Below the pieces are notes generated by a model, which saw only the letters and a list, made by a program, of their open reading frames with translations, made no database searches and was not told the origin of the DNA. 64,000 bases of DNA from Thermogymnomonas acidicola JCM 13583 (lineage in GTDB: Archaea; Thermoplasmatota; Thermoplasmata; Thermoplasmatales; Thermoplasmataceae): the NCBI RefSeq assembly GCF_001316105.1, contig NZ_BBCP01000001.1:186001-250000 (forward strand), written 5' to 3'. Below, in pieces: positions 38,001 through 40,017 of this stretch. The position numbers and the translations under genes are program-made. The first letter of the stretch is position 1, and every line of letters begins with the position of its first letter.

Positions 38001-38021
38001 ATAAACATGAGAAATGTTTAT
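38001..38021 (+). promoter_or_regulatory. Inverted-repeat operator overlapping the hsp20 TATA box
   Basis: A perfect 8-bp inverted repeat, ATAAACAT and ATGTTTAT separated by GAGAA. Its right arm merges into TTTATATA at 38017-38024, the likely TATA box. Transcription would begin near 38046 and a GGAGGT ribosome site at 38065-38070 serves the ATG at 38078. A repressor sitting on the TATA box is the mode of archaeal heat-shock regulators such as Phr and HSR1, and a winged-helix gene follows hsp20. Confidence 0.6.
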
Positions 38022-38077
38022 ATAGTGGTAGGCAATATCAGGTTGGTAACTGAAGGTTACAACTGGAGGTGGTAAAG

Positions 38078-38637
38078 ATGGTTGGAAGGAGGAACAGGGA
38101 CATGGACGACTGGGACGACGACTTCTTCGACGACTTCTTCAGCGACTTCGGCATCGACATAAACAAGATAAATGAGAGGATGAAGAGGATATGGGACAGG
38201 CTGCTCAGGGACCCGGATGTCAGGACTTACGGCCCCCCCTATGTGTACGGCTTCACGTACAAGGTAGGGCCAGACGGCAGGCCTGTGTTCGAGGAGTTCG
38301 GCAACCTCCCGGGGATGAGGGTACCTGGCTAGGCCAGCCAGTTGAGAAGGACGTCAGGGAGCCTATAACTGACCTGAACGTGGACAGGGACAAGGTCTAT
38401 GTGACTTACGAGCTGCCCGGGGGGGTAGCCAAGGAGAACATCAAGCTCAATGTGACGGAGAACAACATAACGCTCGATGTCAGGGAGGGCCCGAGGAAGT
38501 ACTTCAAGAGCATGGACTTCGACTTCAAGCTGAAGCCCAACACTGCCAGGGCAAAGTTCACCAACGGCATACTGGACGTGACTGTGGAGAAGGAAGGCGG
38601 CTCCACAGGCAGCGGCAGGACAGTGACCATAGAGTGA
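38078..38637 (+). CDS. Small heat-shock protein, Hsp20/alpha-crystallin family
   Basis: About 186 residues. An acidic, aromatic-rich N-terminal arm (DDFFDDFFSDFG) leads to an alpha-crystallin domain: VYVTYELPGGVAKENIKLNV, ITLDVREG, ARAKFTNGILDVTVEKE. Such ATP-independent chaperones form oligomers and hold unfolding proteins. A single break near 38328, with one base missing, separates the two halves. The start is set by GGAGGT seven bases upstream. It forms a two-gene unit with the winged-helix regulator 6 bases downstream. Confidence 0.85.
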
Positions 38638-38643
38638 TCCTGT

Positions 38644-39249
38644 ATGATCGGTGACGGCGTGGACGACTTCATAGCCGCACTGGAGAACGAGACCAGGAGG
38701 CAGATAATAAAGCGCCTCCTGGAAACAGAGTCATACGCGCTCGAGATCAGCAGGATCGTTGGTGTGTCACAGCAGGCAATAATGAAGCATTTCGACATCC
38801 TGGAGAGGGCCAACCTGGTGATACCCGTGGGCGTAGTCCCAAGCCCCCTCGGGTGCCCCCAGGAAGGTCTACAGGCCCACCGGGTTTTCAACCCTCGTCA
38901 TCGATTACTCCAGGAGCTTCTTCGATATGAAGCGCTATCCACTGGAAAACGGAGAGGAGGTGGAGGGGGGGGAAGCATAGACGAACTCCTGGAGAGGCTC
39001 AGGGACGTGAACAGCAGGCTTGACAGCCTCATGAAGGAGAGGGAGAAGCTGATATCCCTCAAGGACTCGATAATCAGGAGGGCAAAAAGGCTGATAGAGG
39101 AGGATTTCCCAGATCCCTTCACCCGTGAAGTCCTGACCACATACATCTCCAGCATGGACGCCGAAACTGCTGCACAGGAGCTGGGGGGGTTGCCCGTGGA
39201 GATCGTGAGGAGCATGGTGGGCCAGTATCTTGGCAAGCACTCAGACTGA
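38644..39249 (+). CDS. ArsR-like winged-helix regulator (HSR1/Phr-like)
   Basis: About 201 residues. The N-terminal 60 residues form a winged helix: ENETRRQIIKRLLETESYALEISRIVGVSQQAIMKHFDIL. A long C-terminal coiled coil (LLERLRDVNSRLDSLMKERE) follows. It has two compensating frame changes: an extra G near 38851 (LG frame) and a tract at 38965-38972; between them the true frame reads RPTGFSTLVIDYSRSFFDM. Such a protein placed behind hsp20 matches the autoregulated heat-shock regulator of Archaeoglobus, and the inverted repeat at 38001 is its likely target. Its stop overlaps dphB by 9 bases, tail to tail. Confidence 0.7.
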   Translation: MIGDGVDDFIAALENETRRQIIKRLLETESYALEISRIVGVSQQAIMKHFDILERANLVIPVGVVPSPLGCPQEGLQAHRVFNPRHRLLQELLRYEALSTGKRRGGGGGGSIDELLERLRDVNSRLDSLMKEREKLISLKDSIIRRAKRLIEEDFPDPFTREVLTTYISSMDAETAAQELGGLPVEIVRSMVGQYLGKHSD

Positions 39250-40017
39250 CTGGCAGAAGGCTGAAAGCATCTCCTCTTCGCTGAAGTCCAGGCTGGCTAA
39301 TATGGCTATGCTCACCGGGCTCCTGAACCCGATCTCCGTTTGCAGGAGGTCGCTGATCTTCCCACAGACAACCTTCTCCCACGGCTGGCCGAGGCCGGAT
39401 AGGACGCATGCCATGGTCCCTTCGTTAGGGTTATCGTAGTTTCTTCTCTGTGCCATGGCCAGGAGTGTCCTGAGCGCTGTGTGAGGGTCCAGGTTCTCCC
39501 TGTTGCGGTCCAGGTCCAGCAGAAGGAGTGTGTGGAGGCCATTCTCAAGGTTCCTCCTGACCTTGTCCGCAACACTCAGGGGGGGAAAGAACCTCTCGTC
39601 GGTGAAGGGCATTGAGACCGGCGGGCCCACCTTGTAAGAAAGCAGGCCGAGCCTCCCGTGCCAGGTGTTCAGGATCGATGCGTTTTCTAGAACCTCTACA
39701 TCCACGCCCGCCCTTACCGCGCTCATCCTGACCTGGTTGTGTGTGGTCGCTGACAGTGCGTCTCCTGGGACTAGGAGGCACACAAGCCTGTTTCTGCTCA
39801 TCTCTATGAGCCATCCGTGCTCCTCAAGTTCTGTCCTTCCGCAGAGCCTCACCTCCTTGCCCGTGAGCTCCCTGATCCTTTCAACAGTCCCAGGGGGGGT
39901 ATGAAGGAGGTGTATGTATCAAGGAGCACTTCGTCTGCTCTCCTAAGCCTCTCCACTTCCAGGAGGGTCAGTGAATCGGCCCCCCCTGAGGCCCATGCCC
40001 ATTATGCAGAGCGTCAA
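39241..40017 (-). CDS. dphB: Diphthine synthase DphB
   Basis: About 258 residues of a SAM-dependent tetrapyrrole-methylase fold. It trimethylates or tetramethylates the modified histidine of elongation factor 2. [53 protein letters not shown] and HTLLLLDLD run in the order of archaeal DphB. Tracts near 39982 and 39893 shift the frame in the first third. The TTG start at 40017 overlaps the enolase stop in TTGA, so it is cotranscribed with enolase. Confidence 0.82.

Follow-up and report, generated by a model that had tools for sequence, protein, structure and literature searches.

Excerpts of a 2022 review (PMC9133787) name only Phr and HSR1 as dedicated heat-shock regulators of archaea. Phr of Pyrococcus furiosus regulates its own gene along with hsp20 and an AAA+ ATPase, from a site at the transcription start (excerpts of PMC9133787 and PMC10653856); this site is composed of TTTA / TGGTAA / AAAA over 29 bp (PMC9133787, in part). 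HSR1 of Archaeoglobus fulgidus is encoded in one operon with hsp20, which lies downstream of the regulator, and is autoregulated through the operator CTAAC-N5-GTTAG (excerpts of PMC9133787). For SurR of the Thermococcales, the motif GTTn3AACn5GTT and a second winged helix at the C-terminus are described (excerpts of PMC12162507 and PMC8595942). According to excerpts of a hypothesis published in 2023 (PMC10653856), histone-bearing Euryarchaeota possess factors such as Phr and HSR1, whereas in Sulfolobales and other thermophiles without histones the task falls to chromatin proteins. Histones have been lost in the Diaforarchaea, including Thermoplasmatales and marine group II (excerpts of PMC7613761). 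A repressor of hsp20 in Thermoplasmatota is not mentioned in the titles or the beginnings of abstracts among the matches listed for the literature covered, which leaves out most subscription journals.

The stretch of DNA analysed here (the window) comprises 64,000 nucleotides of Thermogymnomonas acidicola JCM 13583 (contig NZ_BBCP01000001.1, positions 186,001 to 250,000). For its hsp20 locus (Table 1), the original prediction had proposed an autoregulated unit like those of HSR1 or Phr, with a perfect palindrome on the TATA box as the operator. The C-terminal piece of hsp20 matches Pfam HSP20 (8e-5) and the NCBIfam archaeal Hsp20 family (5e-26, 91 of 140 bits), and tblastn yields 43-75% identity to relatives. 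The regulator gene encodes an ArsR-type helix-turn-helix (Pfam HTH_5, 7.2e-8). Since the longest frame 3' of the regulator (39241-39852) is situated on the other strand and is convergent, the hsp20 operon probably consists of two genes. Apart from one tRNA, no Rfam family was found in the window.

Table 1. Features of the hsp20 locus (positions are those of the window)
Feature	Positions	Strand	Remarks
Perfect 8-5-8 inverted repeat ATAAACAT-GAGAA-ATGTTTAT	38001-38021		0 mismatches
TATA box TTTATATA of the hsp20 operon	38017-38024	+	Read from the sequence; aligned with the TATA columns conserved in relatives; within the promoter-model match; overlapped by the right arm of the inverted repeat
Putative third half-site GTAGGCAAT (degenerate), or an AAT element of initiator type	38028-38036	+	14 bp upstream of the left half-site
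Proposed operator GTTGGTAAC-TGAAG-GTTACAAC	38042-38063		Worn GTTRNYAAC-N5-GTTRNYAAC, right half one base short; position as in relatives
Shine-Dalgarno GGAGGTGG	38065-38072	+	Directly 3' of the proposed operator; relatives G-rich at columns +24, +25 and +27
hsp20 (small heat-shock protein, alpha-crystallin domain)	38078-38637	+	Pfam, NCBIfam, tblastn; start ATG after GGAGGTGG, stop included
Regulator gene, ArsR-type winged helix	38644-39249	+	Pfam HTH_5; profile and predicted structure of relatives

In this assembly neither gene has an intact reading frame, a point on which the original prediction is silent. The frame of hsp20 shifts between about 38312 and 38332; that of the regulator is lost between about 38844 and 38860, beside two runs of five C, and is regained within or close to a run of eight G (38965-38972). 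Concerning run lengths in the window, 107 runs of seven C and 20 of eight C are found vs nine of six C, and 118 runs of seven G and 22 of eight G vs eleven of six G, whereas A and T runs fall off smoothly with length. This excess of G/C runs of 7-8 bases is due to run-length errors of sequencing or assembly, through which reading frames are broken and which may also explain the completeness figure of 50.54% of this genome. The break in hsp20 is not located at a G/C run of the over-represented kind.

The two-gene arrangement is common among relatives. In the three partly overlapping sets of loci compared (set A, L006-L034; set B, L083-L162; set C, L194-L213; the sets share genomes), hsp20 lies directly upstream of the regulator at 28 of 29, 52 of 80, and 20 of 20 loci, respectively, and the sole exception in set A is a locus cut at a contig end. 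Another species of the window's genus is not among the genomes compared; set C includes two loci of genus g2, whose regulators are 52-55% identical to that of the window over the first 60 residues. A regulator and hsp20 in one operon is also the arrangement of HSR1, but the order differs, with hsp20 coming first here.

Concerning the regulator protein, a winged helix with a coiled coil had been expected. The ArsR-type domain is present in the window protein itself, whereas the remainder of the fold is predicted for a relative (L110), which was modelled in place of the frame-broken window protein (mean pLDDT 90.1, pTM 0.71); its model shows a winged helix, more strands, a long coiled-coil helix of 43 residues, and a C-terminal stretch of three helices. 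An alignment of 28 regulators matches, over most of its length, the solved structures of Phr (PDB 2p4w, 1.6e-19) and SurR (PDB 2quf, 3.6e-16). Phr, which likewise combines an ArsR-type winged helix with a coiled coil, is also the best Foldseek match of the L110 model (E 6e-9, TM 0.56-0.63, rmsd 6.4-7.2); with VIA-align it reaches Z 13.0 over 171 residues (rmsd 4.5), a score level with that of many short ArsR domains, which cover mostly residues 1-82. From these profile and model comparisons, Phr is the closest solved relative of the regulators over most of their length. By score, however, the proteins are not members of the Phr family: against NCBIfam NF053602, with a cut-off of 320 bits, the window protein scores 34.1 and L110 28.2. 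The likeness to HSR1 is drawn from the description of its operon and operator, and no Archaeoglobus locus is among those compared. The C-terminal three-helix stretch (residues 162-199 of L110) is found in the window's family and is missing in four aligned proteins of two sister families, which end shortly past the long helix.

The hsp20 promoters of the relatives share a dyad of the form GTTRNYAAC-N5-GTTRNYAAC (i.e., GTTnnnAAC-N5-GTTnnnAAC), situated between the TATA box and the start codon. With at most 2 mismatches it is present in 62 of 67 distinct promoters, as opposed to 6 of 67 for the reversed pattern; separated by set, the counts are 26/27 (A), 49/51 (B), and 16/20 (C), against 2, 5, and 1 for the reversed pattern, and the core YAAC-N5-GTTR is exact in 26/27, 46/51, and 18/20 promoters (L009 and L094 are outside the promoter counts). 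The misses comprise L087, L195, and L198 with 3 mismatches each, furthermore L097/L200 and L202, and finally L029, which was counted as a miss since the script placed the start too far upstream and which possesses a site with 0 mismatches. The TATA box occupies positions -25 to -18 of the dyad, and columns -8 to -6 are mostly A, A, and T (45, 54, and 48 of 62 promoters) in a column table that was built from promoters already within 2 mismatches and therefore overstates the conservation of the operator columns. In some promoters a third half-site is found 14 bp upstream of the dyad (L012 and L017; GTTAGTAAT and GTTATTAAT). At the level of whole genomes, the dyad with at most 1 mismatch occurs in 42 of 61 genomes vs 10 of 61 for the reversed pattern; the genome of T. 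acidicola is counted here and has none. It occurs exactly once in 24 of 36 genomes of the same family, in 23 of these no more than 650 bp upstream of the regulator; in G001, of the same family, the single dyad with 1 mismatch is situated elsewhere, and the hsp20 promoter holds a site with 2 mismatches.

Compared with the described systems, this dyad shares the inner core AAC-N5-GTT with the HSR1 operator, whose outer C and G are replaced in the consensus of the relatives, and its syntax GTTn3AACn5GTT is that of SurR. The original prediction had not recognized its own site from HSR1 or Phr, which is resolved insofar as the conserved site follows the SurR syntax and its inner core fits CTAAC-N5-GTTAG. 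The elements of the Phr site differ from the GTTn3AAC halves, 14 bp apart, of the relatives; TGGTAA of the Phr site occurs in the window and is absent from the relatives' consensus.

The window's own copy of the dyad begins 41 bp downstream of the start of the palindrome. Its left end is 25 bp past the start of the TATA box, its right end is directly followed by the Shine-Dalgarno motif, and AAT is found at -8 to -6. As an ungapped 23-mer it exhibits 3 mismatches, and it retains the AAC-N5-GTT core and the register. A 64-column promoter model of the relatives, built from promoters chosen for having the motif, finds its best match in the window at 38011-38070 (E 0.0021; next match 3.5), with one missing base in the right half-site, which may be an assembly error. 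The site in the window goes unlisted when the model is restricted to the 23-mer; only the whole promoter in register matches, such that the assignment of the window operator rests on position together with partial sequence. The strict word GTTGTCAAC-N5-GTTGACAAC is absent from the window and from the genome with up to 3 mismatches. With the relaxed pattern, 24 places with at most 3 mismatches exist in the genome vs 17 for the reversed pattern, so that a sequence search alone would not single out the site; the sole place with 2 mismatches overlaps one with 3 mismatches, and both are situated at the hsp20 promoter. The possible third half-site GTAGGCAAT, combined with the left half-site, gives a pattern match with 2 mismatches in this genome, and it could serve a second dimer or act as an initiator. 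Judged from the promoter sequences, the window's operator is most likely the predicted dyad site rather than the palindrome over the TATA box.

Beyond the hsp20 promoters, the 15 loci that were inspected consist of four hsp20-regulator operons, eight loci with Cdc48/VAT downstream of the dyad (L038, L039, L057, L058, and L060-L063), and three with neither (L041, L065, and L066, of which L041 is also without the dyad by the relaxed pattern). Pfam was used to check the identity of two Cdc48 and two second hsp20 genes, and the other genes of the 15 loci were assigned by eye. The Cdc48/VAT gene follows the dyad directly in six cases and behind a second small hsp20 in two, all in two sister families. 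In these sister families the dyad precedes both the hsp20-regulator pair and Cdc48, whereas in the window's family none of the 21 Cdc48/VAT promoters, including that of T. acidicola (L177), contains it (best matches with 5-7 mismatches, control 4-7). The second hsp20 of T. acidicola (L163) is likewise without the dyad.

Regulator homologues without a detected upstream hsp20 are found at 28 loci, which by title comprise 11 of Poseidoniales/-aceae or the synonymous marine group II, 15 of 'Euryarchaeota archaeon', one of Methanomassiliicoccaceae, and one of Thermoplasmatota; two of them (L117 and L149) have less than 160 bp of upstream sequence, which is too short to show that hsp20 is absent. 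The core YAAC-N5-GTTR is present near the regulator's own start in 24 of the 28, and six control words are present in 0-2 of the 28. One core match (L116, at +60) has other flanks and may be due to chance. In the Methanomassiliicoccaceae locus (L130), one dyad precedes the regulator and another a separate hsp20. That the core accompanies the regulator even where the gene order has changed constitutes the best evidence that dyad and regulator belong together. The dyads near the start of these homologues (L115-L159) mostly resemble CTAnnYAAC-N5-GTTRnnnAG. Judged from their position and outer bases (CTAnnnAAC-like halves in the Poseidoniales loci, GTTnnnAAC halves in the hsp20 promoters), they probably reflect autoregulation through a dyad whose outer bases differ and come closer to the HSR1 motif.

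Transcription in archaea starts about 25 bp after the TATA box. The dyad, situated about 25 bp past the TATA box, is therefore located where transcription should begin, as is the site of Phr (excerpts of PMC9133787). We take the locus most likely to be a heat-shock operon that includes its own repressor, under autoregulation as with Phr and HSR1 and with the dyad as operator. Repression is inferred from the position of the dyad at the start site, and binding by this protein, its dimeric state, its release on heating, and the functioning of the worn copy are inferred as well. The product of the second gene would belong to the Phr/HSR1/SurR group, as a winged-helix repressor of the ArsR type that forms dimers. 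While the temperature is normal, such a dimer would occupy the dyad, over the predicted transcription start and up to the ribosome-binding site, leaving the TATA box free for TBP and TFB and blocking RNA polymerase. On heat stress the repressor would be released, and hsp20 and new repressor would be made together; with the regulator encoded in its own operon, this would provide a negative feedback by which the response shuts itself off. Thus, of the unit originally proposed, the autoregulated hsp20-repressor pair finds support in the conserved gene pair, in Phr as closest solved relative, and in the conserved dyad at the expected start, whereas the operator named for it does not.

The operon and its dyad might be real and yet respond to a signal other than heat, the regulator being a SurR-like redox sensor or an acid or metal sensor with a chaperone gene among its targets. 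The operator follows the syntax of the SurR motif, GTTGGTAAC-N5-GTT of the window fits the long SurR motif too, and SurR (PDB 2quf/2qlz), a related protein (profile positions 9-194 of 196) with an extra C-terminal helical domain, is the second-best solved relative of the regulators. By score the window protein is not a member of the SurR family (26.5 bits against a cut-off of 250 bits). However, the CxxC redox switch, which SurR carries in its N-terminal winged helix, is missing: none of the 28 aligned regulators, which do not include the window protein, has a Cys between positions 20 and 35 or more than one Cys altogether, and the window protein has none in its first 69 residues. Moreover, 12 of the 15 loci inspected for the dyad, which has the long form of the SurR motif, have hsp20 or Cdc48/VAT downstream of it, genes different from those of hydrogen and sulfur metabolism in the SurR regulon. 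We regard a sensor of this kind as unlikely.

The preferred reading, a heat-shock repressor acting on its own operon, would extend beyond the window: on sequence grounds, the repressor and its operator are probably a widely conserved pair in histone-less archaea, which would act like Phr and HSR1. If true, the pair would constitute an easily tested counter-example, within the histone-less Diaforarchaea, to the chromatin-protein hypothesis, and Phr, HSR1, and SurR would be linked through one operator grammar. A further step is conceivable but rather doubtful at present: the Thermoplasmatota might keep a phylum-wide heat-shock repressor with the DNA code of SurR, the GTTn3AAC-N5 dyad being ancestral to Phr, HSR1, and SurR, with SurR a former repressor of the heat-shock type that gained the CxxC switch and a new regulon, and Phr a regulator with a changed site.

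Two other readings concern the palindrome. The dyad might be decaying in this particular organism, with the TATA palindrome as its lineage-specific replacement, and indeed the window's dyad is worn and the palindrome perfect; since, however, the AAC-N5-GTT core and the register are kept, the missing base may be an assembly error, and the palindrome is near chance, such a turnover appears quite improbable. Quite improbable as well is a repressor that binds the palindrome on the BRE/TATA box in competition with TBP and TFB, for although the repeat is perfect, has no second exact copy in the genome, and is placed directly over the TATA box, it occurs at a near-chance frequency and, with up to 3 mismatches, in only 1 of 67 distinct hsp20 promoters of two-gene relatives.

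The presence of the perfect repeat, as originally reported, is confirmed. Its frequency is as follows: perfect inverted repeats with 8-base arms number 7 distinct in the window for spacers of 0-5, vs 6.5 (sd 2.3) in 30 dinucleotide shuffles, 14 vs 11.2 (sd 2.8) for spacers of 0-10, and 32 vs 21.3 (sd 4.5) for spacers of 0-20, the last a mild excess. When the 138-bp promoter region is shuffled, a repeat with 8-base arms and a spacer of 0-20 arises in 176 of 4000 cases (4.4%); the expectation of 0.04 refers to the exact word that was found and is for this reason circular. In the genome (1.74 Mb) the exact word occurs once. Further copies had been suggested as a check, and the two places with 2 mismatches lie, by eye, beside sugar-transfer enzymes (L002) and beside a dehydrogenase and a transporter (L003), that is, not beside genes that look like heat-shock genes. 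Concerning the relatives, the columns under the left arm (seven of eight printed) carry 0.23 bits or less in the promoter table. Any inverted repeat in the TATA region (arms of at least 8, spacer 0-12, -60 to -10) is found in 5 of 62, all different words in AT-rich DNA. Lack of the repeat upstream of hsp20 in relatives had been named in advance as a refutation of the original proposal, and by this standard the palindrome fails as operator. Given its near-chance frequency as well, it is rejected in this role and most likely is a chance repeat over the BRE/TATA region.

In none of the set C loci is the best match to the palindrome one of 3 mismatches or fewer at the hsp20 promoter: 18 of the 20 loci have best matches with at least 4 mismatches, and those of the two exceptions, L199 (exact) and L200 (2 mismatches), lie over 500 bp 5' of the hsp20 reading frame. 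In L199 (positions 185-205), from another genome, the exact word extends across a start codon of a gene preceding hsp20, by eye presumably a dCMP deaminase gene, and is read as a chance occurrence in AT-rich DNA.
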